Of a stretch of 64,000 nt of DNA, positions 7,674 through 21,131 are shown piece by piece. Below the pieces are notes generated by a model, which saw only the letters and a list, made by a program, of their open reading frames with translations, made no database searches and was not told where the DNA came from. Every line of letters starts with the position of its first letter. Within the stretch, counting starts at the first letter, position 1. This stretch comes from Nucisporomicrobium flavum. Lineage in GTDB: Bacteria; Actinomycetota; Actinomycetes; Mycobacteriales; Micromonosporaceae. A program made the translations under genes and the position numbers. The stretch spans positions 124,001 through 188,000 of the forward strand of contig NZ_JADMLH010000011.1 in assembly GCF_016464385.1 (NCBI RefSeq). The letters run 5' to 3'.

Positions 7674-9065
7674 ATGATCGAAATCAGGAGGAAGACCGCC
7701 GTGGCGGTGCTGGCGGCAGGACTGGTGGCGGTGGGTGCGCCTCCCGCGACCGCCGGACAGACCCTGACCTGGACTCCCTGCAACGACCGTGAGCTGGTGC
7801 TGGACTGTACCGACGTGACGGTCCCGGTGGACTGGTCCCGTCCGCGGGGCGCGACGATCTCGCTGCGGGTGCACCGGCACCGGGCCTCCGGCACCAGCCG
7901 GGGGTCGCTGCTGCTGAACCCGGGTGGGCCGGGCGCACCCGGGAAGCCGTTCCTGGAGTACGCGGCGCGCAGGTTCAGCAAGCCGGTGATCGACGGGTTC
8001 GACCTGGTCAGCTTCGATCCCCGAGGGGTCGGCGAGTCCGCGCCCCTGAGCTGCCCGCCGGAGGCTGACGCGGCATTCCGGAAGTCGGACCCCTCGCCGG
8101 ACAGCCTTCGCGAGCGGATCGCCCGCGAGAATGCGAGCAGGACATGGGTACGGGCCTGCCGGGCGAAGTCGGGCCCCATCTTCGACCACGTCGACACGGT
8201 CAGCGCCGCCCGGGACCTCGACGTGCTGCGAGCCGTGCTCGGCGACGACAAGCTCTCCTACTACGGCGGCTCGTACGGCACCCGCCTCGGCCTGCGGTAC
8301 GCGGACCTGTTCCCCACCCGCATCAAACGCATGGTGCTGGACGCGGTCGTCGATCCGGCGCAGGACAACAAGGCGTTCCTCACCGACGTCGCCAAGGGTG
8401 AGGAGCGAGGTCTCGACGCTTATCTGAGCGGCTGCGACGACCGCCCCGGCTGCCCGTTCCGCGGCTTGACTCCGGCTCAGAGCCGGACGGAGGTGGCGGG
8501 CCTGTTCCAGGCGGCGGACCGGCATCCGGGCGAGCAACTGCAGCTGGTCAACCTCACGGAGGAGCACCTGTCGGATCCGTCCGGTGCTCCCGACCTGGAC
8601 ATCCTGTTCACGGCCGTCCGCTCCGGCGACCACAGTGCCATTGAGCCGGATCCCGACACCGACGTGGCCTTCAACGCGATCCAATGCCTGGACCTCCCGG
8701 ACCACCGCACCGCAGCTCAGATCATGCGAGACACCGCGGCGCTGACCCGGGAACGGCCGGTGTTCGGGCCGGAGGTCCAGTCGGGTACGCCGTGCCCACA
8801 GTGGCCGAACGGGGGAGTGTCCGACCCGCACCCGGTCACCGCTCACGGCTCGGTACCGATCGTGCTGCTGGCGGGCACGGGCGACCCCGCGGCGCTCTAC
8901 GAGTGGGGACAGTCCGCGGCGGCCCACCTGGAGAACGGCCGGCTCCTGACCCGCGAAGGCAACGGCCACGGCTCGTACGTGTACGGCGCCTGCCGCCCCG
9001 AGGTGGACCGCTACCTCCTCGACGGAGTGCCGCCGCCCCGGGCGGGCGCGGTGTGCGACAAGTAG
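7674..9065 (+). CDS. Secreted S33-family tripeptidyl aminopeptidase-like hydrolase
   Basis: A 463-residue alpha/beta-hydrolase of the actinobacterial tripeptidyl-aminopeptidase (SlpD/E, TAP-like) group, expected to release short peptides outside the cell. The signal peptide starts MIEIRRK and ends PPATAG. The oxyanion-side motif is NPGGPG, the nucleophile Ser200 in GGSYG, Asp404 in GTGDP and His432 in GNGHG, giving a complete triad; a TAP C-terminal domain is present. ATG 7674 gives the charged signal-peptide start. A GTG at 7701 has a better AGGAGGA site 9 bases upstream but would remove the basic residues. Confidence 0.88.
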   Translation: MIEIRRKTAVAVLAAGLVAVGAPPATAGQTLTWTPCNDRELVLDCTDVTVPVDWSRPRGATISLRVHRHRASGTSRGSLLLNPGGPGAPGKPFLEYAARRFSKPVIDGFDLVSFDPRGVGESAPLSCPPEADAAFRKSDPSPDSLRERIARENASRTWVRACRAKSGPIFDHVDTVSAARDLDVLRAVLGDDKLSYYGGSYGTRLGLRYADLFPTRIKRMVLDAVVDPAQDNKAFLTDVAKGEERGLDAYLSGCDDRPGCPFRGLTPAQSRTEVAGLFQAADRHPGEQLQLVNLTEEHLSDPSGAPDLDILFTAVRSGDHSAIEPDPDTDVAFNAIQCLDLPDHRTAAQIMRDTAALTRERPVFGPEVQSGTPCPQWPNGGVSDPHPVTAHGSVPIVLLAGTGDPAALYEWGQSAAAHLENGRLLTREGNGHGSYVYGACRPEVDRYLLDGVPPPRAGAVCDK

Positions 9066-9100
9066 CCCGCGAGGCGGGATCGAGCCGCAGGGGTGGTCGC

Positions 9101-9143
9101 CTGCCCCGGCGGAGACGCAAGACTTGCGTGTCCGCCGGGGCAG
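9101..9143. terminator. Bidirectional terminator hairpin
   Basis: A 13-bp perfect stem (CTGCCCCGGCGGA with its complement) extends through an inner 7-bp stem (ACGCAAG/CTTGCGT), giving a very stable 43-base hairpin. It lies between the ends of the convergent peptidase and lectin genes. There is no U-tract, as is usual in high-GC actinobacteria. Confidence 0.8.
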
Positions 9144-9166
9144 GGAGATGAGCTGGGCCGGGCCGG

Positions 9167-9697
9167 CTACTCGATGATCCAGGACTGGGCACCTGCGGGA
9201 ACGGCCTGGCCGCAGGTGAACTGCATGAGGTTGCTCCCGCGACCGCCGACCGTGTCCAGGCACTGGTTGGTTCCCGCGTGCCTCAAGGTGAGCCCTTCCG
9301 CCACCCACTGCTCAGCAGCCGATCCGTTACAGGTGAACTCGTCGACCGTCTCACCGGGAGTGCTGGTGCCGTTGTTGACCTCCATACAGAACCCGCTCGC
9401 CCTGTTCACCACGAAGAACGTGTTCGCCGCCCCTGTCGGCACGAACGTCCACAGCCGGGTACCGGTCGAACGCGAACAAGGGGCGAGCCTGAGCTGGACG
9501 TTGAGCGCCCCGCCCGGAGCGTCGATGCACTGCGAGAAGGCGGCGTTCCGGATCTGGTTGAAACTCTGAGCAGCGGAGTGAGCCTCGGGGCCCCGAGACG
9601 AGGTAGCAGCGCTGGCGCCGGCGGCGTCGGCGAGCAAGCCGGTCCCGGCCAGCAGCAACGCCGCCGTCGTGACGAACAGCCTCATGAGAGTCTTCAT
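9167..9697 (-). CDS. Secreted ricin B-type lectin (CBM13-like) protein
   Basis: A 176-residue exported protein. The signal peptide MKTLMRLFVTTAALLLAGTG is followed by one ricin-type beta-trefoil of about 125 residues. The Q-x-W-like repeats appear as TRLWTF, AEQWV and AQSWII, and paired cysteines recur in each subdomain (SQCID, APCS, GFCME, FTCN, NQCLD, FTCG). It likely binds galactose- or xylose-containing glycans and has no catalytic domain. ATG 9697 has AGGAGA about 10 bases upstream; the 28 upstream in-frame codons are not signal-peptide-like. Confidence 0.85.
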   Translation of the reverse strand: MKTLMRLFVTTAALLLAGTGLLADAAGASAATSSRGPEAHSAAQSFNQIRNAAFSQCIDAPGGALNVQLRLAPCSRSTGTRLWTFVPTGAANTFFVVNRASGFCMEVNNGTSTPGETVDEFTCNGSAAEQWVAEGLTLRHAGTNQCLDTVGGRGSNLMQFTCGQAVPAGAQSWIIE

Positions 9698-9925
9698 GGG
9701 ATCGTTTCTCCTAGTCTGTGGGTGCTTCCGCCCGCCTGCCGTCTCTGTCGCGCACCCGGAACGGGCCCGCAGCAAGCGCACCCAGTAGGCGTGCCATTCC
9801 GTGCCACCTGGTTGCCGTCGCGTTCAAGGACGGTCTCGTAGCTGCCCTGCCTGCGCGGATTTGCGTACGGGTCAGGCCGCTTCCGGGCGTACGGTCCCGG
9901 CCGGCTCTGCCGTCAGGATTGGTCC

Positions 9926-10342
9926 ATGACGGATGAGCGGGGGAGCCGGACCGGTCAGAGGCGGATGTGGGTCGTCTCGTCGTGCATTGCCCTGGTCCTC
10001 GCGGCGGTCGGCGACGCGGGGCCGGAGATCGTCGAGTCGCGCAGCCTGGTGGCCGGTTATGACGGTCCAGGGCCGCTGATCTGCCTCGGTGTCGCGGTGT
10101 TGGTTGCGGCGGTGCGGTGGCGTTTCGTGCCGCTGGTGGCGGTGGCGATGTCCGCGCTCTTCCTCGTCGGAGGACTCGCCGATGCGGAGTTCAGGAATCG
10201 GCTCACCGGACCGGTCGGAGCCGGCTTTGCCGGCGGCTGGCTGCAAATGCTCGGCTTCGCGGCGGCATTCGTGTGCGGGCTGGCCGCTGTCCGGTGGCAC
10301 GCGAAGCGGCGACGGCCGCGACAACTGAGGGGACGACGGTGA
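9926..10342 (+). CDS. Small four-helix membrane protein, unknown function
   Basis: A 138-residue protein with about four hydrophobic segments (near 14-30, 50-67, 70-85 and 105-123) and a basic C-terminal tail rich in Arg and Lys. I recognise no family. AGGA lies 8 bases before the ATG. Its stop overlaps the next start (TGATG), so it is made together with another small membrane protein of similar topology. The two may be paralogues that work together. Confidence 0.7.
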   Translation: MTDERGSRTGQRRMWVVSSCIALVLAAVGDAGPEIVESRSLVAGYDGPGPLICLGVAVLVAAVRWRFVPLVAVAMSALFLVGGLADAEFRNRLTGPVGAGFAGGWLQMLGFAAAFVCGLAAVRWHAKRRRPRQLRGRR

Positions 10343-10722
10343 TGACCACTATCGCGGAGCGCTTCACGGCGACGCCGAGCGCCACGAAGATGTCCCTGTC
10401 CGGCCTGGCCGTCGGCGTAGCCGGTCTGGTCGTCCAATGGATTGCCGACCCCGCCAAGTTTCCCGGTTTCCCGCCGGGCATCGGCTTCATCGCGGTGTGC
10501 GCTGCGCTGGTGGTGGTGGCCGCCGGCCGTTGGTGGGCGCCGATCTTCTCGGTTCTGATTTCGCTCTGGATTGTGCTCGGCGGGTGGGCTGCCGGTGTGC
10601 TTGTCCCGAATCTCCGGTCGGACAATGCCGGGACGGTCGTCGGCAACGCGGTGATGACGGCCGGGCTGGTGTTCGCGGCGGTCACCGGAATCGTCGCGAT
10701 GATCGCAGGCCGCCGGAGCTGA
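10342..10722 (+). CDS. Small membrane protein, unknown function
   Basis: A 126-residue protein with four hydrophobic segments (about 18-35, 47-62, 67-86 and 100-120) and a short basic end. ATG 10342 overlaps the preceding stop by one base, which fixes this start over longer in-frame options inside the upstream gene. Topology resembles the gene before it (GG-rich central loop, WAAGVL segment), so an ancient duplication is possible. No enzymatic motif is visible. Confidence 0.7.
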   Translation: MTTIAERFTATPSATKMSLSGLAVGVAGLVVQWIADPAKFPGFPPGIGFIAVCAALVVVAAGRWWAPIFSVLISLWIVLGGWAAGVLVPNLRSDNAGTVVGNAVMTAGLVFAAVTGIVAMIAGRRS

Positions 10723-10742
10723 AGGGCGAGATGTCGCCGCTG

Positions 10743-12107
10743 TCACCCGTGTGTCCCTGTGAGGACCGGGAGCAGGCCGGGCCGGCAGGCGGTGGCCGCG
10801 TCGCGCAGCGCGGCCACCCGCCGGACCTGTTCGCCGGCCGGTACCGTGCGCAGCTTCTGCACCGTGTCGTGAACGCGGGTGTCGAGGGCCTGGACGAGCG
10901 GCCAGCTGTCGGCAGGGATGTGGTCGGTGCCCATCAGCCACGCCCCTGCCGCTGCCTTGGCGACCGCGTCGTCGTCGTTCTCCGGCGGGCAGTGGTGACG
11001 CGGCGCCCCGGCGCCCCAGATCAGGTTCTCGACCAGATGCGGTTCGGGCCGGCCGGTCACCTCGTCGATGTCGAAGGTCACGGTCCCGGCGGGGACGGGG
11101 ACGGAGTCGGGTTCGGGGAAGAAGACGGCCCCGTAGTAGTCGTTGGTGGTCGCCGCCCGCCATTCGACGGCCCGCTGCGGCGCCCCGGGCAGCCTCGCGA
11201 GCAGCTCGAGCGCCCGGCGGGCCTGCGTCGTGGCCTCGCCCAGCGCGCGCGAGTGTACGGCCGTCACGCACACCTGCGGCGTTCCGTCGCTGCACACCAG
11301 CCGCTGGGCGGCTCGATCCACGCTGTACCGGCCGTACGCGCCGTCCTGCCCGGCGCCGGGCAGGTACGCGGCGGCCGAGAGCGCCACGGCCAGCACCGCG
11401 ACGGCCGTCGCCCGCGTCGACCACCGCGTGGCGGCGGCCAGCAGGAAGCCGGCGGCCACCAGCCCCACACCCAGCGCCAAGCGCCCCAGCATGGCATTCC
11501 CGGTGACTGTTTCCCAGTCGTAGCTGGGTGGCGCGACGACCAGCAGCAGGCTGTCAAGCCAGGTCAGCCTTCCCTCCGCCGGCTTCAGGAGGGAGAGTCT
11601 GAGCTGTCCGGCCATGGAGGCCGCAGCCAGCACCGGGGGCACCAGGCGGGACGACCATGACCGTCCCGCGGCGTACCCGAGCCAGGCGCTGCCGAACAGG
11701 AGCGGCGCGTCGGTGAGCGGAACCAGCAACGTGCGTACGCTCGCATAGTCGGTGAACCGCGACACCACCACTCCGCCGAGGACGAACGGGAGCAGGTACG
11801 CGACGATCAGGGTGACCGCCAGGGCGGCCGCCGGCAGCGTGATGCGCTGCCAGCGGGGCCGGGCGGTGCTGGCCATCACCTCATCGGCGCCGGTACGCCG
11901 TTCCCGGCGCCCGAGCATGGCGCCGCCGCCCATGGCGAGCGGGACCACGATGGGCAGGGCGCCGGCCTGCTCGATCGCCAGCCGGATCCACTGCAGCTTC
12001 CAGGCTTGCTGGTCGGTGGCCAGCGCCGCCATGCTCACCGCGGCGATCAGCACGCCCATGGCCGGCGCGTTGGAGCGCCGCAGTTCGACCAGGAAGAGCC
12101 GGATCAC
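10743..12107 (-). CDS. ABC-2-like integral membrane protein with extracytoplasmic domain
   Basis: A 454-residue protein. Residues 1-260 contain about six membrane segments and the permease-like phrase GRRERRTGADEVMASTARPR, which resembles the cytoplasmic loop of ABC-2 permeases. The last 190 residues are hydrophilic with several cysteines (CSDGTPQVC, HHCPPENDDD, ACRPG) and could form an exported domain. No ATPase gene is adjacent, so partner and substrate are unknown. It is convergent with the small membrane-protein pair and divergent from the sigma factor gene. Confidence 0.65.
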   Translation of the reverse strand: MIRLFLVELRRSNAPAMGVLIAAVSMAALATDQQAWKLQWIRLAIEQAGALPIVVPLAMGGGAMLGRRERRTGADEVMASTARPRWQRITLPAAALAVTLIVAYLLPFVLGGVVVSRFTDYASVRTLLVPLTDAPLLFGSAWLGYAAGRSWSSRLVPPVLAAASMAGQLRLSLLKPAEGRLTWLDSLLLVVAPPSYDWETVTGNAMLGRLALGVGLVAAGFLLAAATRWSTRATAVAVLAVALSAAAYLPGAGQDGAYGRYSVDRAAQRLVCSDGTPQVCVTAVHSRALGEATTQARRALELLARLPGAPQRAVEWRAATTNDYYGAVFFPEPDSVPVPAGTVTFDIDEVTGRPEPHLVENLIWGAGAPRHHCPPENDDDAVAKAAAGAWLMGTDHIPADSWPLVQALDTRVHDTVQKLRTVPAGEQVRRVAALRDAATACRPGLLPVLTGTHG

Positions 12108-12324
12108 AACCGGCTCCGATGGTGGTCACGCATCGTGTCTCTCATTGTCCCGTCGGTCTCTCTGACACCCGGTCAGACGACGGCGGACCGGGTATCGGAT
12201 CACGACGGAGAGCTTTTTGGCTGAGTCATGACCGCGGGAGCGCCGGGGTTCGGCGGATGCGTCAGCTCAACCTTTCCGGAGGCCGGCACCGTCGGTTGAG
12301 TGAACGGCTACCGGAAGGACGAGG

Positions 12325-12843
12325 ATGCGGGAGAACCCCCGGCCCGGCGACGAAGCCTACGTCAGCTACGTGACGGCACGGCTACCGGCGTTGCAGCGCG
12401 CGGCGTTTCTGCTGTGCGGTGGGGACGTCCACCGGGCGGATGACGTGGTGCAGGCCACGATCACCCGGCTGTACCAGCACTGGAAGCGCGTGTCGCGCAG
12501 CGACAACGTCGACGCGTACGTGCATCGGATGCTGGTGCACGCGTTCGTCGACGAGCGGCGGCACTCGCGGTCGCGGGTGCAGCTGGGCGGGCGGCCGATG
12601 GAGGCCGCCGGGGGTGACCCGCACTCCGGGGTGGACGAGCGGGGCAGCCTGGTGGCGGCGCTGCGCCGGCTGCCGCCGCGGCAGCGGGCTGTGCTGGTCA
12701 TGCGGTTCCTGCTGGACCGGCCGATCGAGGAGGTGGCTGAGGCGTTGAAGTGCTCCGTGGGCACGGTGAAGAGCCAGAGCTCGCGTGGGCTGGAGGCGCT
12801 GCGGTCGATGCTGGCGACGATGGAGGAGCACCGGAATGGATGA
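12325..12843 (+). CDS. SigE-family ECF RNA polymerase sigma factor
   Basis: A 172-residue extracytoplasmic-function sigma factor. Region 2 (about 15-80) has the HRADDVVQATITRLYQHW stretch that replaces the usual DLVQE core, and region 4 (about 110-160) has LPPRQRAVLVMRFLLDRPIE and VGTVKSQSSRGLEALR. The length matches the SigE family that is greatly expanded in Micromonosporaceae and Streptomyces. GGAAGGACGAGG precedes the ATG. It overlaps the HAF-repeat membrane gene by 8 bases, a usual arrangement of sigma factor and its controlling membrane protein. Confidence 0.93.
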   Translation: MRENPRPGDEAYVSYVTARLPALQRAAFLLCGGDVHRADDVVQATITRLYQHWKRVSRSDNVDAYVHRMLVHAFVDERRHSRSRVQLGGRPMEAAGGDPHSGVDERGSLVAALRRLPPRQRAVLVMRFLLDRPIEEVAEALKCSVGTVKSQSSRGLEALRSMLATMEEHRNG

Positions 12844-13999
12844 GGCCGAGCTGAAAGGGCTGATGCTGGCCGTGGAGGTGCCGCCGGGCGGCGCGGACGT
12901 ACAGCAGGCGATGGACACGGGGCGGCGGCGTAACCGCGGGCGGGCTCTGCTCGCCGCGGGCGCCGGCGTGGCGGTGGTCGCCGCGGTCGGCGCGTTCGTG
13001 GCGACCGCGCCGATGCGGGCGGGTCCACAGCACACCGCCGGTCAGCCGGACACCGTCGTCACCCCGCAGGCGAAGGGCAGGTGCGTGCCGACGTTGCTGG
13101 AGACGCCCGGCGGCGCGACCGGGAGAGTCACGGCCCTCGACCCGGGCGGCACCATGGCCGGCGGCCAGCTGAACGGCAATCCGCCGACGGCGATCCTGTG
13201 GAAGGACGGCAAGGTCGTCGACCTGCCGGCGGCCGCGACCGGGACGATTGCGGACGTGGTCGGCGACACCGTCGTCGGATATTCGACGAATGAGGAGGGT
13301 GGGAGCAGCGGTTGGGTGTGGCGCGACGGCAAGGTGACCACCCTGGCGAAGGTCAAGGGCTACCCAGGGACCCACCCGCAGGCGGTCAACGCGAAGGGGG
13401 TCATCGCCGGGTGGGTGCAGGGCACCGCCCCGGACGACACGGTCGCCGTCACGTGGTCGCCCGACGGCACGGTGCACCAGTTGCCGCGGCCGTCGACTCG
13501 GCGGCCGGACGATCACTCGTCAGCTGCGCGCGACATCGCCGACGACGGCACGATCGTCGGCGAGGCGGCCGGGCTTCCCATGCTGTGGTGGCCCGACGGC
13601 AGTCCGGAAGGGCTCGGAGCGGCGTGGGAGAACGAGGGCACACGCGGGATCGCGTGGGCGATCGCGGGCCGGTACGTCTACGGCGTAGCCGATGGCTTCG
13701 AGACCCGCTGGGTATTGAACGAGCGTTCGTTGTTCAGCGTGGCCACGCTGCCCGATGCTGGTGAGCTCGGTGCGCGCGCCGGCACCGCCGACGGTACTGC
13801 CCTGCTGGCCGGGGACGGTCTCCAGAAGCCGGCCGGCCGGATCGGCCTCGACGACAAGGGTCCGGTTCCCGTCGACGAGTTGCCGGGCCCCCACGGCGAG
13901 ATGGCGATCGCCGTAGCGATCAGCGCCGACGGCAACACCATCGCCGGCACCGTTCTGGACGGCGACCGCAGCCGTCCGGCGATCTGGCGCTGCCACTGA
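12836..13999 (+). CDS. Membrane-anchored HAF-repeat protein, putative anti-sigma partner
   Basis: A 387-residue single-pass protein. About 38 cytoplasmic residues lead into one membrane helix (near 38-58). The outer 320 residues hold repeats of the HAF type: short beta-units ending in phrases such as ILWKDGKVVDL, WVWRDGKVTTL and VTWSPDGTVHQL. ATG 12836 overlaps the sigma gene by 8 bases. The cytoplasmic segment is short and lacks an evident zinc anti-sigma motif, so the anti-sigma role is inferred from gene order only. Expected to sit in the cell envelope. Confidence 0.75.
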   Translation: MDEAELKGLMLAVEVPPGGADVQQAMDTGRRRNRGRALLAAGAGVAVVAAVGAFVATAPMRAGPQHTAGQPDTVVTPQAKGRCVPTLLETPGGATGRVTALDPGGTMAGGQLNGNPPTAILWKDGKVVDLPAAATGTIADVVGDTVVGYSTNEEGGSSGWVWRDGKVTTLAKVKGYPGTHPQAVNAKGVIAGWVQGTAPDDTVAVTWSPDGTVHQLPRPSTRRPDDHSSAARDIADDGTIVGEAAGLPMLWWPDGSPEGLGAAWENEGTRGIAWAIAGRYVYGVADGFETRWVLNERSLFSVATLPDAGELGARAGTADGTALLAGDGLQKPAGRIGLDDKGPVPVDELPGPHGEMAIAVAISADGNTIAGTVLDGDRSRPAIWRCH

Positions 14000-14091: not shown

Positions 14092-16230
14092 TCACCCTCC
14101 GGGCGCCCGGAGGATCCGCGGAGCGTCTGCGGGCCCGAACGCCAGGGACCCTACCGGCGCGGCGGCTTTCGGTTGTGGGGGTCCCAGTACGGCCAGAGCC
14201 TCGACCCAGTAGCGGACCATCGCCCGGCTGGTGCTCTCCTCCCGGGAAACCGCCGCGTCGAGCCGGCGGCGGGCAGCCTCCGGGTCGGACAGGGCGAGGT
14301 CTGCGGCGAAGAGGTCGCCCCAGACCCGGGGCTTGTCTCCCAGTTCCTTCTGGCGGGCGGCCGACGGGCCGCGGTAGAACGCGCCAGCCGTCAAGGGCAG
14401 CAGTTGGATGCCGAGGACTGACTCGGGCTTCGGGTCGAACCAGGTCGCATAGTCGATCTTGGCGTCCCAGACAATGCCCGCGGTGGTGTGGGCGTATCCG
14501 GCCTCGCGCGTCGCCCCTTCGCCGAGCCAGTACATCCGTGCTGTCGCCGCCTCCAGAGCGTAGTGCGCGATGCCGTACCCGGTCATCTCCGCGTTGTCAC
14601 GGACGACTCCCCAGCGGACCACGGCCTCCCAGGCCGCCACCGCTTCGCTGGACGACTCCTGGTTGTTGCCGTCCGCGAAGGGCGCGAACCCGGAGGCGGC
14701 CGAACTGCCCAGATAGGCGTTGAAGGCCCGGAACGGCGGCAGCCCGCTCGCGGGGCCGATCGCCAGTGAACCGGCGTAGTCGCGGACGATCAGGTCGACC
14801 ACGTCGCCGTACTCGCGGGCGAATGCGGGATCGGCCGTTCCGAGCACGGCTGCGGCGCGGACCAGGTAGCCGTACTGGAAGTGATGGTCGTTGTAATCCT
14901 GTGCGCCGAACTCGGCCGGGACGGCTATCAGCCCACCCCAGGTCGGGTCGTAGCCGAAGTAGCGTCCGTCGGGCGGTCCCGTCCAGGTCAGCCAGTCGAT
15001 GAGTTGCGGCCGCAACCGATCAAGCGCCGCCGTGCGCTGCGTGTCCGCCCCGGAGGCGGCCGCGACCTCGGCGACGGTGGCCAGCCGGCCGAGTTCCTTG
15101 AGCCCGAAGTAGCTGCCGCCCGCGCCGGGTGGATCAGCCAGGTCACGATGCAGATCGGCCCGCACGGCTTTGTTCGCCGGCTCGCTCAGCGACACCTTCG
15201 GCATGGCGGTGAGCAGGCCGGGCATCGGGACCCTGACCTGCACCGCGCCGGCCGTCACCAGGGACATCGTCCCCCGTGCGTCCGGATAGGAGCCCGCCAG
15301 TGGTACCGGCCCGGCGGCCAGGCCGGCTTGGTGGTGCGGCAGCAGGGCCCACGCTCCGCCTCCGCCGGCGGCCCGGCGTGCAGTGAGCGTCTGCGTGACA
15401 GTCCCGGCCGCGGCGTCGTACGCCGCGGTGGCCGTGGTCTGCACGATCGGATCGCCGGTGCTGGCCTTCTCCCAGCTCGTCCGATCGGCGCCGGCCGGGA
15501 CCCGGGCGACGGCGAGTTGCCGGCCCGACCCGGTGATGGTGGTCCCGGTCTGCACCAGATCCGTGCCGAGAACATCCCAGCGCCCACCCGCGATGTCGAG
15601 CCGGGCCCGGGTGGGCGAGCTACCGACGTCGCGGAAGGCGCCGTTCACGCTTGGCGCCGCCCCGTCGAAGCGCAGCCACACCACCGGACTGCCCTGCGCG
15701 AGGGTGACATCGACCCGGCCGCCGCCGGCGAGCCCGACCCGCAGGACGACGTGGAAAGCGCCGTAGCTCACGACAGTCACTGCGCCGGTGGCCGTGCCGA
15801 CGGTGAGGGCGGGCAGAAATGGGGTGGTGACGGCGTTCGCCGAGGCGGTGAGGGACGCGCCGCTGATCTGCAGGCCGTCGGCGGCGGCCCGCACGGCCAG
15901 CGGGTGCGTCCAGATCGGCTGGGTGCGGGGCCCGGTCAGTGCGGAGCTCCACCACTGGTTCGTCGGCACCGCCTGGCCCTTGAGGTCACCGGCCTGCGTG
16001 GGGGACTTGGCCGGGGCGGAGCCGGCCGGCAGCTTCCCGGCGATGCTTGCGCTGCCGGCTACCACGGGCATCGTGAGTGGCGACGCGGCGGCGTCCTCCA
16101 TGACCGTTCCGGCATTGTGCGGCGGCGCTGCCGGAACCCGGTCCGGCGGCGTCGCGTCGGGCGTGGAGGTGCACGCCGTCAGCGCGGTGAGAGCCGCGAT
16201 CGCGGTCATGGTCCGGATACGGCGGTTCAT
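14092..16230 (-). CDS. GH81 endo-1,3-beta-glucanase lipoprotein
   Basis: A 712-residue glycoside hydrolase family 81 enzyme that cleaves beta-1,3-glucan internally. The N-terminus is a lipoprotein signal with lipobox Cys20 (LTALTAC), so it should be anchored on the outer face of the membrane. Family signatures are TNQWWSSAL near residue 90, DYNDHHFQYGYLV starting at Asp445 (region of the catalytic acid) and NNQESSSEA with Glu525 (region of the catalytic base). Its start overlaps the HlyD-like gene by 4 bases. Being tied to a synthase operon suggests trimming or editing of a nascent glucan rather than feeding on external glucan. Confidence 0.88.
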   Translation of the reverse strand: MNRRIRTMTAIAALTALTACTSTPDATPPDRVPAAPPHNAGTVMEDAAASPLTMPVVAGSASIAGKLPAGSAPAKSPTQAGDLKGQAVPTNQWWSSALTGPRTQPIWTHPLAVRAAADGLQISGASLTASANAVTTPFLPALTVGTATGAVTVVSYGAFHVVLRVGLAGGGRVDVTLAQGSPVVWLRFDGAAPSVNGAFRDVGSSPTRARLDIAGGRWDVLGTDLVQTGTTITGSGRQLAVARVPAGADRTSWEKASTGDPIVQTTATAAYDAAAGTVTQTLTARRAAGGGGAWALLPHHQAGLAAGPVPLAGSYPDARGTMSLVTAGAVQVRVPMPGLLTAMPKVSLSEPANKAVRADLHRDLADPPGAGGSYFGLKELGRLATVAEVAAASGADTQRTAALDRLRPQLIDWLTWTGPPDGRYFGYDPTWGGLIAVPAEFGAQDYNDHHFQYGYLVRAAAVLGTADPAFAREYGDVVDLIVRDYAGSLAIGPASGLPPFRAFNAYLGSSAASGFAPFADGNNQESSSEAVAAWEAVVRWGVVRDNAEMTGYGIAHYALEAATARMYWLGEGATREAGYAHTTAGIVWDAKIDYATWFDPKPESVLGIQLLPLTAGAFYRGPSAARQKELGDKPRVWGDLFAADLALSDPEAARRRLDAAVSREESTSRAMVRYWVEALAVLGPPQPKAAAPVGSLAFGPADAPRILRAPGG

Positions 16231-17009
16231 GCGCTGTTGACGGCGGGGGTGCTCCCGACGGCCGTGGTGGTGTCGACGACCACGGCGAACTGCAGCCCCG
16301 GCACCAGTGTCCGCACTGTCGCACGGGCCGCCGGGTCCGGCCGCAGCACGACGGTCAGCTTGTCCGCAGTGCTCGCCTGCTGGCCGGCATCCACCTTCGG
16401 CTCGACCTTCTCCAGCGTCGAAATCATCCGGCTGGAGAGGCCGGGGCCCGTCACGTAGGCGGTCATCCCGAGGCGGAATTTGCGCAGCTTCTCCAACGGC
16501 ACGTCGACCGCGAAGGCGACTTCGGCAGGGTCGTACAGGGTGACGATCGGCTCACCGGCGCGGGCGATCTGACCGGGCGGGACGTTGATCTTGGTGACGA
16601 TGCCCGCGGCCGGAGCCTGCAGCTTCTGCACTCGTCGCGTGTTCCCGTCCCCGTCCGCGGTCAGGGTGATGGTGGCCAGGACCGCGCCGGCGGAGACGCT
16701 GCTCCGCTCGGTGGCCAGCATGTCGGTGACGACCGCGGCGTCGGCCGACCCGACCGCGATCGGCTCCGCGATGAGTACGGCCGTGCCGGCATCCACCATG
16801 TTTCGTTCGGCAAGGCGCTGCCGCACGACGTGGTTGCCGCCCGCGCCGGCCGCTGCCAGCAAGATCAGCACTACCAAGCTGGTACGCGCGACGCGCAGTG
16901 CGCTACGTCTGCGGCGCTTCGGCGGCGGCGGGGCCGCCGGTGCGGGGGGTTGAATGACTCTGGTCGCGTCGTTGTCGTACGTTCTGACATTGTCGATCGT
17001 GGCGCTCAT
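16227..17009 (-). CDS. HlyD-like periplasmic adaptor protein
   Basis: A 260-residue membrane-anchored protein. A proline-rich and Arg-rich cytoplasmic start is followed by one membrane helix (about 41-58). A biotinyl-lipoyl-like beta-barrel domain comes next, with APAAGIVTKINVPPGQIARAGEP in two half-motifs typical of membrane fusion proteins. Similar adaptors accompany polysaccharide synthases such as alginate Alg44-type systems. It is 61 bases downstream of the GT2 synthase and overlaps the GH81 start, so it probably helps the polymer cross the wall. Confidence 0.8.
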   Translation of the reverse strand: MSATIDNVRTYDNDATRVIQPPAPAAPPPPKRRRRSALRVARTSLVVLILLAAAGAGGNHVVRQRLAERNMVDAGTAVLIAEPIAVGSADAAVVTDMLATERSSVSAGAVLATITLTADGDGNTRRVQKLQAPAAGIVTKINVPPGQIARAGEPIVTLYDPAEVAFAVDVPLEKLRKFRLGMTAYVTGPGLSSRMISTLEKVEPKVDAGQQASTADKLTVVLRPDPAARATVRTLVPGLQFAVVVDTTTAVGSTPAVNSA

Positions 17010-17070
17010 GGTCGTACCTCTCGGCGGTGTGGACCGGTTCGGGCGGCGGATGGGGCTGGCAGAGCCGAGG

Positions 17071-18681
17071 TCAGGCGGTTGTCTCGGCGTGCTGCGGACG
17101 GATGGTGGCCTGTTCGCCGGCGGGCGGGAGCGGGGCGTCCGACGCTTCGGCCGACGGCTTCGCGCCGTGCCGGAGCCGGCCGCCGGTGACCGATTCGAGG
17201 ATCATCCGGCCCAGGATCAGAACGATCATGGAGGCCCAGCCGACGGACAGCCAGGTCGGCGCGGGATCGGCCATCACGAACACACCGACCACAATGGCCG
17301 TGACGTTCAGCACCAACAGCGCGAACAGGGGCATGACCGCCCACAGTGACCGGGTGCCGTCGCCGCCGGCGTTGGTGGCCTTCCATTTCGCCGGTCGCCC
17401 GAGCAGCACACCACCGAGCGCTCGCAGATGTACCGGCGCCGCACCGATGCTGGCCACGATCGCCGAAAGCTTGAACCCGCCCGACTGCAGCCAGGTGACC
17501 AGCAGCACGGCCGCCTGGAACGGCAGGTAGTGGGTCGCCCATGCGAGGCCGTCGGCGCGAATGGGACTCAGCGCGAAGAGCAGGTAGAGCGCCGGGAAGA
17601 GCATGAAGGTCAGCATGGCCACGGACAGCAGGTAATGCGTACCGCAGAACAGGTACTGCAGTCGCTGGTCGATCGTCAGGCCGATGCCCCGCTTGAACAG
17701 CCGTCCGCGCAGCAGCACCTCGAAACCGCCGCTCGCCCAGCGCAGCTGCTGTTTCAGGTACGACGGGACGTCCTGGGGGGCGAGCCCGCGAGCCAGCACC
17801 TGCGGGACGTAGATGGACTTCCAGCCACGCTTGTGCAGCTCGATCGACGTCCAGATGTCCTCCGAGTTGCTGCCCGTCCAGATGCCGCCGATGGTGTCCA
17901 GCGCGGCCCGCCGGAACATGACGTTCGTACCGACGCAGAAGGCGGCGTTGAAGTGGTTCTTGCCCGGGCAGACGAGCTCGTAGAAGATGCGCTGAGCTTC
18001 GCTGGAGCCCGTGGCGACCAGATTCACGTTGTTCGTGTAGAACTGCGGGGACTGGACGAACGCCACGTCCGGGTCGTGGAAGTGCGGCAGGATGCTGAGC
18101 AGGAAGCCCGGCTCCGGCACATGGTCGGCGTCGAAGATGACCACGAACTCACCGTTGGTACGGGCCAGGCCGGCATTGACGTTGCCGGCTTTCGCATGCG
18201 CGCCGCCCGGCCGGCGCAGATAGCCGATGCCCACCTGGTCCGCGATCTCGCGCAGTTCATCGCTGTCGCCGTCGTCGAGCAGGAAAGTCCGGTGTGGCAG
18301 CTGCATGTCGCGGGCCGCGATCATGGTGCGCCGGACCAGCGCCGGCTCCTCGCCGTACGCGGTGATGAAGACGTCGATGGACGGCGCCTCCGAGCCGGCC
18401 CGTAGCCGGTTGCGCCACACCGTGGCGTCCACCGATTCGGGCCGGTCGTCGTGCGCCAGGATGGTCCACCACGTGCCGATCAGGTGCACCGCGGTCAGGC
18501 CTTCGGCAGCCAGCATGGCCAACCAGAGCCAGCCGGGGCCACGGTACGCCGGGTTGAGCAGGAAGAGCTGATAGAACAGAGTGGCGGCAAGCGCCGCGAT
18601 GATGGCCACGCGCGTCGAACGTTGCAGCGGCCGCCATGCCAGGCGAGCTGCTCGGGCCGGCGGAACTGACGGTGCCGTCAT
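17071..18681 (-). CDS. Processive GT2 glycosyltransferase (cellulose/curdlan synthase-like)
   Basis: A 536-residue membrane glycosyltransferase of the cellulose-synthase superfamily. Two membrane segments (about 25-75) precede the catalytic domain with LLDDGDSDE (136-139), FDADHVPEP (DADH 184-187), the acceptor-binding ED pair (274-275) and QQLRW (311-315), the hallmark of processive synthases. Four to five membrane segments follow. No PilZ domain is present, so direct c-di-GMP control is not expected. ATG 18681 has GGGAG 7 bases upstream and avoids 55 non-family codons. It heads the operon with the HlyD-like protein and GH81 glucanase, which makes a beta-1,3-linked product likely but unproven. 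Confidence 0.88.
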   Translation of the reverse strand: MTAPSVPPARAARLAWRPLQRSTRVAIIAALAATLFYQLFLLNPAYRGPGWLWLAMLAAEGLTAVHLIGTWWTILAHDDRPESVDATVWRNRLRAGSEAPSIDVFITAYGEEPALVRRTMIAARDMQLPHRTFLLDDGDSDELREIADQVGIGYLRRPGGAHAKAGNVNAGLARTNGEFVVIFDADHVPEPGFLLSILPHFHDPDVAFVQSPQFYTNNVNLVATGSSEAQRIFYELVCPGKNHFNAAFCVGTNVMFRRAALDTIGGIWTGSNSEDIWTSIELHKRGWKSIYVPQVLARGLAPQDVPSYLKQQLRWASGGFEVLLRGRLFKRGIGLTIDQRLQYLFCGTHYLLSVAMLTFMLFPALYLLFALSPIRADGLAWATHYLPFQAAVLLVTWLQSGGFKLSAIVASIGAAPVHLRALGGVLLGRPAKWKATNAGGDGTRSLWAVMPLFALLVLNVTAIVVGVFVMADPAPTWLSVGWASMIVLILGRMILESVTGGRLRHGAKPSAEASDAPLPPAGEQATIRPQHAETTA

Positions 18682-19028
18682 GGATGCTCCCGAAAGCCTT
18701 CGATATGTAGCGCCGTGAATCCGGTGCCACGGACCAGGGAACAGGAACATTCGCTGACGCGCGAGACATCGCGCCGAACATTTATATTCAGCACGGGTTA
18801 CGGGGTAGTGAAATGGGTGCCGCGTGCGCGGCTGAACGATCTTCACATATTGTGCCGCATAGTCCGTGAGCTGCGGCTAAGCGGGTTGGCGCGTTAAATC
18901 CTGATGACCTTTTCGACCTCTCGAATTCCACCCTGAGAAGGCGCCAGTGGGTGAGGTCACATGGGTCGCCGGCGGAGTGGCGAGTTCTGTCAATGCAATG
19001 GAAACCTTGGTGACACAAGGCAACTCAA
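18682..19028. promoter_or_regulatory. AT-richer intergenic leader of the glucan operon
   Basis: This stretch is clearly richer in A and T than its surroundings. On the minus strand TATAAA (18786-18781) is a good -10 element about 95 bases before the GT2 start. Further up, AGTGG-N6-TCACA (18946-18961) is a weak CRP-type half-conserved palindrome. I saw no riboswitch that I could identify and no gene. Confidence 0.4.
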
Positions 19029-19500: not shown

Positions 19501-19586
19501 TATTTCCGTTGTTACAGTACGTCTGAACCCACGGTGAAATTCCGCAGGTGTTTGTGTGACACGTGCATGTTGGACGGGGGACAGAC

Positions 19587-21131
19587 ATGCGAGGTTTAGG
19601 ACGAACGGCGCTGGTCGCGGCTGTACTGGTCGCCACAGTGGTGCCATTGAGCGGACCAGCCCGGGCGCAGGCATGTGCGCCGGGATCGGACTTCAATGGG
19701 GACGGTTGCGGCGATCTGATCGTTGCGGATCCCGACGCGACCGTCGACGGCAAGGCTCGGGCCGGCCGGGTCAACGTGGTGTACGGCGGTGAGAACGCGG
19801 CCCGGGCGCTTCTCACCCAGGGCATGACTGGCGTCGGTGACACCGCCGAGACCGACGACCGGTTCGGCGCCGTCGTGCGCGCCGCCCAGATCAACGACGA
19901 CGCGTACGCCGACCTGGTGGTCGCTGTGCCGTCAGAGTCGGTCGGCAGCGCCGACGACGCCGGGGTGGTCCACGTGATCTTCGGTTCCGTCGCGGGGCTG
20001 GGCGGCGGCAAGAGCGGCATCGTTCTCCGGCAGGGCGCGTTCGGCGTACCAGGGGTGCCGGAGGCGGGTGACCGGTTCGGTGCGTCGATCGCGGTGAACA
20101 CCACCGACCTCGACGGCGCAGGGTTGCCGGCGCCGGCGATCGCGTACGGCGCGCCGGGCGAGGACCTCGGCAGTGTGCCGGACGCTGGGGCAGCGGGTCT
20201 GGTGGCGTTCGACGTCAGCACCGGTGACGTGACGCTGGCGCGCGACCTCACGCAGGATTCGCCCGGCATCAGCGGGAAGGCCGAGCGGGGTGACCGTTTC
20301 GGCGCGGCCGTGGAGGTGTTCCAGGGGCCCGGCGGGTTCGGCTGCAGCGCGAGCACCGCGCAGGGCTACACGATCGTGGTCGGCGTGCCCGGCGAGGACT
20401 TGGACGGCGTCCAGGATGGCGGCATGGTGCACATCGCTCGCGGGCTCGCCACCGATACACCTCTGTCACAGGACACGGCCGGGGTGGACGGCGTCGCCGA
20501 AACCGGTGACCAGTTCGGCGCGAGTCTCGCGTTGACGTCGTTCTGTGAGCATGACGGACCGTCGCATGTGAAGTTGGTGGTCGGTGTACCCCATGAGGAC
20601 ATCGGCGCAGCGGCCGATGCCGGGGCGGTGCATCTGTTCGCGACCGACGACGACGAGTTGCCGCTGCCGCAACGGTGGAGCGTCAACCAGGAAACGGCAT
20701 CCGTGGCCGGTGCGGCCGAGGCCGGCGACCGGTTCGGCACGACCCTCGCGCTCGGCGGCCCGTGGCGGGACGGCCTTGGTGAACCGGTCGTGGTGGGCGT
20801 ACCGGGTGAGGACGTCGACTCGTCCACCGACGCGGGCTTCATCCAGGTCTTCGGTGACGGGACCACCGCGCCGGGCAACGGAGACGTCGGTGTGGCGCAG
20901 TCCGATCTAGGCGACCCGGCGCAGGCCGGTGACCAATTCGGCGCTGCGCTTGCCGCGCGCTACCAGGCGCTGTTCGTCGCGGCACCCGACGACGTGACCT
21001 ACTCGACCGGCGTGGTGCATGTCATCGGTTGGGACGCGGTGTTCGGCGGTGGCGCGGACACCGTGATCGCCCCTGGTGTCGACGGCGTGCCGAGCGGCGC
21101 GGCCCGATTCGGAGCGGCGCTGGCCGCCTAG
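19587..21131 (+). CDS. Secreted FG-GAP/integrin-alpha-like repeat protein
   Basis: A 514-residue exported protein. The signal peptide (MRGLGRTALVAAVLVATVV, cut near ARAQA) is followed by seven or so FG-GAP/VCBS blades. Each blade has a phrase like GVPGEDLDGVQDGGMVHI and GDRFGAALA, and the first blade has the calcium-loop sequence DFNGDGCGD. It should fold as a beta-propeller and bind ligand or cell surface; no catalytic motif is seen. ATG 19587 follows a GGGGGA site, and the upstream TTGACA at 19448 may be a promoter element. It is flanked on both sides by recombinase relics. Confidence 0.85.
   Translation: MRGLGRTALVAAVLVATVVPLSGPARAQACAPGSDFNGDGCGDLIVADPDATVDGKARAGRVNVVYGGENAARALLTQGMTGVGDTAETDDRFGAVVRAAQINDDAYADLVVAVPSESVGSADDAGVVHVIFGSVAGLGGGKSGIVLRQGAFGVPGVPEAGDRFGASIAVNTTDLDGAGLPAPAIAYGAPGEDLGSVPDAGAAGLVAFDVSTGDVTLARDLTQDSPGISGKAERGDRFGAAVEVFQGPGGFGCSASTAQGYTIVVGVPGEDLDGVQDGGMVHIARGLATDTPLSQDTAGVDGVAETGDQFGASLALTSFCEHDGPSHVKLVVGVPHEDIGAAADAGAVHLFATDDDELPLPQRWSVNQETASVAGAAEAGDRFGTTLALGGPWRDGLGEPVVVGVPGEDVDSSTDAGFIQVFGDGTTAPGNGDVGVAQSDLGDPAQAGDQFGAALAARYQALFVAAPDDVTYSTGVVHVIGWDAVFGGGADTVIAPGVDGVPSGAARFGAALAA

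Follow-up and report, generated by a model that had tools for sequence, protein, structure and literature searches.

A three-gene synthase locus

We describe a candidate operon of Nucisporomicrobium flavum (Micromonosporaceae) that encodes a processive family GT2 synthase, a HlyD-type adaptor and a GH81 glucanase. It lies in a stretch of 64,000 nucleotides (hereafter the window; contig NZ_JADMLH010000011.1, positions 124,001 to 188,000), and we predict, with a probability of about 0.7, that it makes and exports a linear, pure beta-1,3-glucan resembling callose or curdlan. The three genes occupy positions 14092-18681 of the minus strand, with the synthase (17071-18681, 536 amino acids) followed by the adaptor (16227-17009, 260 amino acids) and the glucanase (14092-16230, 712 amino acids). 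A preliminary description of this DNA placed all three on one strand with four bases shared by adaptor and hydrolase. This is correct: the HlyD stop codon and the GH81 start codon (ATG at 16230) overlap in an ATGA at 16227-16230 on the minus strand, and the two genes are likely to be translationally coupled. An in-frame ATGA or GTGA overlap is present in 36 of the 42 HlyD-GH81 pairs that passed a distance filter (pairs beyond it, e.g., those of loci L050, L168, L176 and L058-L060, are left out of the count). Because the gene order recurs in other genomes and the start/stop overlap is kept, the grouping is not due to chance.

The synthase has all of the processive motifs that were listed for it earlier (DDG at residue 136, DADH at 184, S-E-D at 273 and QQLRW at 311), that is, the D, DxD, (T/S)ED and Q(Q/R)xRW signatures of processive GT2 enzymes, together with a predicted membrane channel fold. 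Pfam identifies GT2 domains and no PilZ domain, also as described. The structural model (predicted local distance difference test, pLDDT, 82.4; below 50 at residues 1-17 and 505-536) has about two plus four membrane helices and adopts the BcsA fold (Foldseek E 9.5e-27; VIA Z 34.6, root-mean-square deviation 2.7 over 468 residues). Its last long helix spans residues 473-506, and the 30 residues that follow end the protein as a disordered tail.

The adaptor matches HlyD_3 at 49.5 bits (cut-off 22.2) and has a single hydrophobic helix near the N-terminus (residues ~37-69), which identifies it as a HlyD/membrane fusion protein. In the model (pLDDT 86.0) this helix is joined to a split lipoyl and beta domain with no coiled-coil hairpin, and the fold matches those of BesA, EmrA and MexA. 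Partners of HlyD type also occur beside CrdS and BgsA; three alpha-proteobacterial ones are 410-484 amino acids long, compared with 260 here.

The third protein is an endo-beta-1,3-glucanase-like putative lipoprotein. Pfam recognizes the GH81 C-terminal domain (161.8 bits) and, just above the threshold, the N-terminal domain (26.0 bits; cut-offs 25.6), and the best PDB match is 6fop, a GH81 (E 5e-66). Conserved DHH and NNQESSSEA stretches (the latter reads NNQESSGEA in locus L032) include D448, E525 and E529, which we take to be the catalytic residues. The preliminary description had the enzyme anchored in the membrane. Its family assignment stands, and the N-terminus (...LTALTAC) has a lipobox-like Cys20 as a putative anchor; a simple hydropathy scan shows no strongly hydrophobic helix. 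In synthase-linked hydrolases elsewhere, every readable N-terminus shows either a lipobox-like cysteine or a hydrophobic stretch. All N-termini were judged by eye, so that lipoprotein, helix anchor and cleaved signal peptide are not distinguished by a predictor.

Occurrence and phylogeny of the gene set

Genomes were scanned with the GT2 sequence alone, and GH81, GH16 and HlyD genes in the resulting loci were sought with models built from the proteins of the source genome. Among 150 genomes of the family, 13 encode a GT2 of this kind (E 1e-60 or better) and 79 encode a GH81. The glucanase beside the synthase is a GH81 in 11 of these 13 and a GH16 in the other two (G075 and G076). The order GT2-HlyD-GH81 is found in eight other Actinoplanes genomes, with GT2 identities of 76-93%, and a ninth (G076) is the one with GH16; the closest named GT2 among the matches listed is that of Actinoplanes cyaneus (86% identity). 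Across Actinoplanes, 31 of 67 genomes have the synthase, in 39 places. Twelve of these places had been seen earlier, seven were left out and 20 were newly examined, all 20 of which have HlyD and either GH81 (17) or GH16 (3).

The preliminary description proposed a search for the three-gene order in other genomes; the gene set was found in other actinobacteria, in an Acidobacteria metagenome-assembled genome (MAG) and in Patescibacteria MAGs. Of the best 80 named loci by GT2 alignment, 15 encode HlyD together with GH81 (13 loci) or GH16 (2 loci); they make up the named membership of the clade described below. Their actinobacterial carriers are Actinoplanes, Paractinoplanes, Micromonospora, Klenkia, Kineosporia and a Nanopelagicales MAG, and the remainder are MAGs of Acidobacteria, Saccharibacteria (3), Moraniibacteriota (2), Paceibacterota, Gottesmanbacteria and one labelled only 'bacterium' (L038 and L052 are identical, one genome entered twice). 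The Acidobacteria contig may be misbinned, as it has 70% GC and groups with actinobacteria. The other 65 loci, all outside the clade, have no GH81 or GH16 in the DNA covered (several of these loci span only ~4-9 kb, and GH17, GH55, GH64 and GH128 were not sought).

A class-level scan of 394 genomes with the clade profile matched 14: the source genome, seven genomes at 640-685 bits and six at 349-423 bits. These 13 new genomes served as an out-of-sample test, in which HlyD and GH81 lie directly downstream of the GT2 in 7/7 of the upper tier and 0/6 of the lower. Scanning 396 genomes at the phylum level added no clade member; the six other matches there are outside the clade or unplaced.

Four Patescibacteria loci have an extra open frame of ~670-900 codons upstream of the GT2 (L058:5882-7930, L063:4052-6067, L059:895-2979 and L060:5297-7993), which in L058-L060 lies between GH81 and GT2. 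Those of L058 and L063, the two that were searched, have no Pfam match. In actinobacterial near-relatives of the synthase (L042:6656-9802 and L189:5308-8451), the GT2 shares one open frame with a PMT_2-type mannosyltransferase domain, which comes second.

The synthases paired with a beta-1,3-glucanase form a lineage of their own. A quick tree built from 105 GT2 rows places all 28 such rows in one group (Shimodaira-Hasegawa-like approximate likelihood ratio test, SH-aLRT, 99). A careful tree of 68 of 119 rows (55 older ones picked to cover each group plus all 13 new ones) recovers 27 as one clade (bootstrap/SH-aLRT 100/99), with CrdS, BgsA and BcsA beyond a 100/100 split. Both trees are unrooted, and the GT2 of L041, a fragment of 179 amino acids, was left out. 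Thus the synthase does not cluster with cellulose synthases; chitin and hyaluronan synthases, compared by profile, sequence and fold and not placed in the tree, score below BcsA. The synthase also stands outside the CrdS group, in a separate clade with CrdS residues missing from the membrane channel. CrdS is represented by L130, a presumed ortholog encoded on an Agrobacterium plasmid: the ten curdlan synthase residues named in PMC6821405 stand at the same numbers, and the preceding gene starts like crdA in a primer given in PMC4327974. Synthases of Saccharibacteria and of one unlabelled MAG (L054, L055, L057 and L062) fall together with those of actinobacteria (100/100), as would be expected if epibiont and host had exchanged genes, in either direction.

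The clade is also marked by its gating loop. The FxVTxK motif of this loop has been described as fully conserved (PMC6821405), and both F and K are present in 24/24 BcsA-type rows. Clade members instead have WxxT (WKATN at 433-437 in the window protein), with W replacing F in 28/28 rows and K in 0/28; outside the clade W is found in 0/73 other rows and K in 71/73. The new genomes agree, with W in 7/7 and K in 0/7 of the seven new members, and F in 6/6 and K in 5/6 of the six near-relatives. The W-type loop and the absence of PilZ suggest that the synthase would not be switched by cyclic di-GMP as BcsA is.

Could the hydrolase be a nutrient-acquiring or anti-fungal glucanase that adjoins a cellulose-like synthase by chance? 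GH81 is common in the family, and in 68 of the 79 genomes that encode one, none lies beside a clade GT2. However, free and linked GH81 proteins separate in a tree (13 versus 24 rows, SH-aLRT 100; the free rows all come from the one family) and differ at their N-termini, an ordinary signal peptide being seen in 12 of 13 free proteins, with the remaining one a fragment. Furthermore, synthase and hydrolase are paired in several phyla, in most cases with an overlap at the start codon, and one subclade has GH16 where the others have GH81. We therefore regard a chance neighbor as very improbable. The GH16-paired synthases form a single subclade within the clade (100/99), so that one hydrolase family most simply replaced the other once.

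Both kinds of set coexist in the source genome (9.02 Mb in 50 contigs), which encodes three GT2s of this kind that are 57-100% identical to the window GT2. The other two sets face each other on contig C9 (L012). The first, of GH81 type, is on the plus strand (GT2 8990-10576, HlyD 10607-11407, GH81 11404-13710) and has the same 4-base overlap of HlyD and GH81. The second, of GH16 type, is on the minus strand (GT2 ~15217-16884, HlyD 14367-15203), with a lipoprotein-like gene at ~16950-17906 directly upstream of the GT2. The product of that gene has a weak Pfam GH16 match (13.7 bits, cut-off 22), and its closest solved structure is the endo-1,3-beta-glucanase 3dgt (E 9e-96). A third GH81, on contig C23, is free-standing with an ordinary signal peptide. 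In the GH16-type set, the gene after HlyD resembles those for inorganic pyrophosphatase (L012:13873-14367); it was considered as a conserved partner and rejected, as it stands beside this genome's GH16-type set only and is absent from the other loci searched.

Proposed product, partner roles and local context

We propose that the GT2 would polymerize UDP-glucose at the cytoplasmic side and thread the chain through its own membrane channel. Beside the channel exit, the single-helix HlyD protein may guide or stabilize the chain outside; it has no long hairpin with which to reach an outer membrane, as would fit a monoderm cell. The GH81 lipoprotein, presumably anchored at the same face, would cut beta-1,3 bonds and so trim or release chains or clear stalled ones, in the way that BcsZ acts for cellulose.

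The occupation of one slot by two non-homologous beta-1,3-glucanase families argues for a product with beta-1,3-glucosyl bonds and for a partner that hydrolyzes them. GH81 enzymes are inverting and GH16 enzymes retaining. The activity that they share is thus hydrolysis, not ring-forming transglycosylation, and trimming, release or clearance is likelier than ring closure. This renders it improbable that the products are short or cyclic beta-1,3-glucans and that the hydrolase is a processing enzyme releasing oligosaccharides or rings, although an enzyme placed at the exit of the channel would be able to act on each chain. Such processing has been proposed for a GH17-GT2 fusion of pseudomonads (PMC10237404). 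Other GT2 branches have other hydrolases: GH26 is fused to one Bacteroidota synthase and beside a Bipolaricaulota one, and GH8 is beside a WWE3 synthase (L067:7968-11756, L064:9464-10531 and L069:6685-7938). This suggests that each branch has a hydrolase of its own that suits its polymer, as cellulose operons do.

The residues at the channel entrance bear on the linkage. In CrdS numbering, Q237 and Q259 are each present in 28/28 clade rows, and position 270 is K in 24/28 and R in 4/28, in a table that leaves out rows L048, L049, L064 and L099_521. The 24 BcsA-type rows have H at 237 in 24/24 and no K at 270. As the Q/Q/K entrance is shared with BgsA-type and sister groups, it speaks against cellulose and not specifically for curdlan.

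The main rival is a mixed-linkage beta-1,3;1,4-glucan like that of rhizobial BgsA/BgsB, in which the hydrolase would act on 1,3 linkages or on regions rich in them. Mixed-linkage glucans are possible substrates of GH16 enzymes. However, most sets have GH81, a family known to act on pure beta-1,3-glucan, as the names of PDB entries also indicate. BgsA is likewise paired with a HlyD protein, and its group has Q/Q/K-or-R entrance residues; it belongs, however, to the distant CrdS/BgsA group and, at 664 amino acids, is ~130 residues longer, with an extra C-terminal domain (PMC9495663). A Gram-positive mixed-linkage synthase, RiGT2, does exist, but it needs a PilZ domain (PMC10374906), which is absent from the window GT2. 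The data do not separate a pure beta-1,3-glucan from a mixed-linkage one, and we judge the latter unlikely, though ahead of the other alternatives.

Several observations weigh against a pure beta-1,3-glucan. Every clade member is known from sequence alone. The solved folds nearest to the window GT2 are cellulose synthases, the nearest solved sequence is BcsA (E 1.4e-52), and the best NCBIfam model is CelA (TIGR03030), at 248.3 bits far under its cut-off of 699.1; no solved curdlan synthase is among the PDB matches listed. The Q/Q/K entrance occurs in the BgsA-type group and also in near relatives that have no beta-1,3-glucanase, and the seven new clade members carry R at the third position (270). 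CrdS residues W422, E439 and H442 are found in 0/28 clade rows and H374 in at most 1/28. The mixed-linkage RiGT2 is outside the scope of both GT2 trees. Finally, occurrence in 31/67 Actinoplanes genomes means that the set is dispensable in the genus. The beta-1,3-glucan operon first suggested is nevertheless supported in part, by a clade paired with HlyD and GH81 or GH16 in several phyla; the linkage of its product we infer from these partners.

Among bacterial GT2s, the formation of beta-1,3 links has been demonstrated for CrdS, BgsA and the clostridial RiGT2 (PMC6821405, PMC9495663, PMC10374906). The open-access papers listed in our searches include no description of a GT2-HlyD-GH81/GH16 set and no report of such a polymer in Actinoplanes or Patescibacteria. 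Our broader proposal, held at a little below even odds, is that actinobacteria and Patescibacteria form a callose-like polymer at their surface by means of an undescribed lineage of beta-1,3-glucan synthases with a W-type gating loop and a tethered glucanase, the Saccharibacteria genes appearing as if exchanged between epibiont and host. A separate clade with HlyD and a beta-1,3-glucanase beside every member examined could serve as a genomic marker for beta-1,3-glucan production, and would predict this polymer in Actinoplanes and Patescibacteria. A W-type gating loop without PilZ would also provide a natural comparison for the evolution of linkage and control in this synthase family.

A role in the sporangium matrix was considered and rejected. 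In Actinoplanes missouriensis the matrix has been attributed to the clusters imp, wps-1 and gsf, which are of Wzx/Wzy or GtrA type (PMC12691653, PMC13390465) and differ from the present set, and the terms HlyD and GH81 are absent from both texts. The presence of the synthase in fewer than half of the Actinoplanes genomes also argues against a core role in sporangia. The TcrA box (consensus from PMC12691653) gave no signal, with 77 matches in the window at up to 3 mismatches and 89 expected.

Two conserved elements lie 5' of the GT2 on the minus strand, both seen in an alignment of seven Actinoplanes loci: a dyad-like element, GGCRCCGAATCCACGGYGCT, at 18709-18728, 5' of the start codon, in which some of the changes are paired, and a box of 17 bases, TGTRACSTCRCYCACTG, at 18945-18961, a candidate regulatory site. 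Near the operon and on the opposite strand are genes for a sigma-70 family (extracytoplasmic function-like) sigma factor, close to the 3' end (12325-12843, plus strand), and for an FG-GAP repeat protein (19563-21131, plus strand). The window also encodes a protein that has a ricin-type beta-trefoil lectin domain and probably a signal peptide (9167-9781, minus strand). PADLOC identified no defense genes.

Comparison with known systems

The preliminary description knew of no beta-1,3-glucan from filamentous actinomycetes. Curdlan has been reported from the actinobacterium Cellulomonas, which is not filamentous, and Cellulomonas genomes are reported to contain GH81 and, per genome, two GT2s that share 35-39% identity with curdlan synthase; these curdlan genes are candidates only (PMC3544764). 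The 'Orphan'/NdvB fusion of pseudomonads similarly combines a proposed beta-1,3-glucan GT2 with a domain active on beta-1,3-glucan. Unlike the window set, this domain is GH17 and is fused, the product is proposed to be cyclic, and HlyD is not mentioned (PMC10237404). RiGT2 of Romboutsia ilealis and its clostridial group is a Gram-positive GT2 that makes beta-1,3 links, in a mixed-linkage product. It differs in requiring its PilZ domain for activity, and neither HlyD nor GH81 is mentioned in the part of the report available (PMC10374906).

The bcs cellulose operon (BcsA, BcsB and the GH8 enzyme BcsZ) shares with the window set a processive GT2 of the same predicted fold. Many bcs operons carry a dedicated hydrolase of matching specificity. 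The window set differs in having no PilZ, no BcsB (its neighbor is HlyD) and no cellulose-type entrance residues, and in having a beta-1,3-glucanase family in place of GH8. The bgsBA genes of Sinorhizobium and Rhizobium are similar in pairing a HlyD protein with a GT2 that has no PilZ. Apart from the distance in the tree, no glucanase is annotated in the 9.5-kb stretch around them, and the C-terminal domain of BgsA is a cyclic di-GMP domain (PMC9495663), which the window GT2 does not have.

The Agrobacterium crdASC operon likewise consists of a GT2 (CrdS), a HlyD-like partner (CrdA; that of L130 scores above the HlyD_3 cut-off) and a third protein (CrdC), and CrdS has the entrance residues Q237 and Q259 in common with the clade and K270 in common with most of it. 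The protein in the CrdC position of L130 (L130:5818-7098) has no Pfam match above cut-off, and its similarity to the structure of an endo-beta-1,2-glucanase is weak (E 0.0027); it may be a diverged hydrolase. The differences are that CrdS belongs to another GT2 clade, has residues 422, 439 and 442 that are absent from the window clade, and has the FxVTxK loop in place of WxxT, and that the third gene is crdC rather than GH81, whereas here the HlyD protein is small with no hairpin and the synthase comes first in the operon. The set is thus functionally like curdlan synthesis, yet its synthase is not CrdS.

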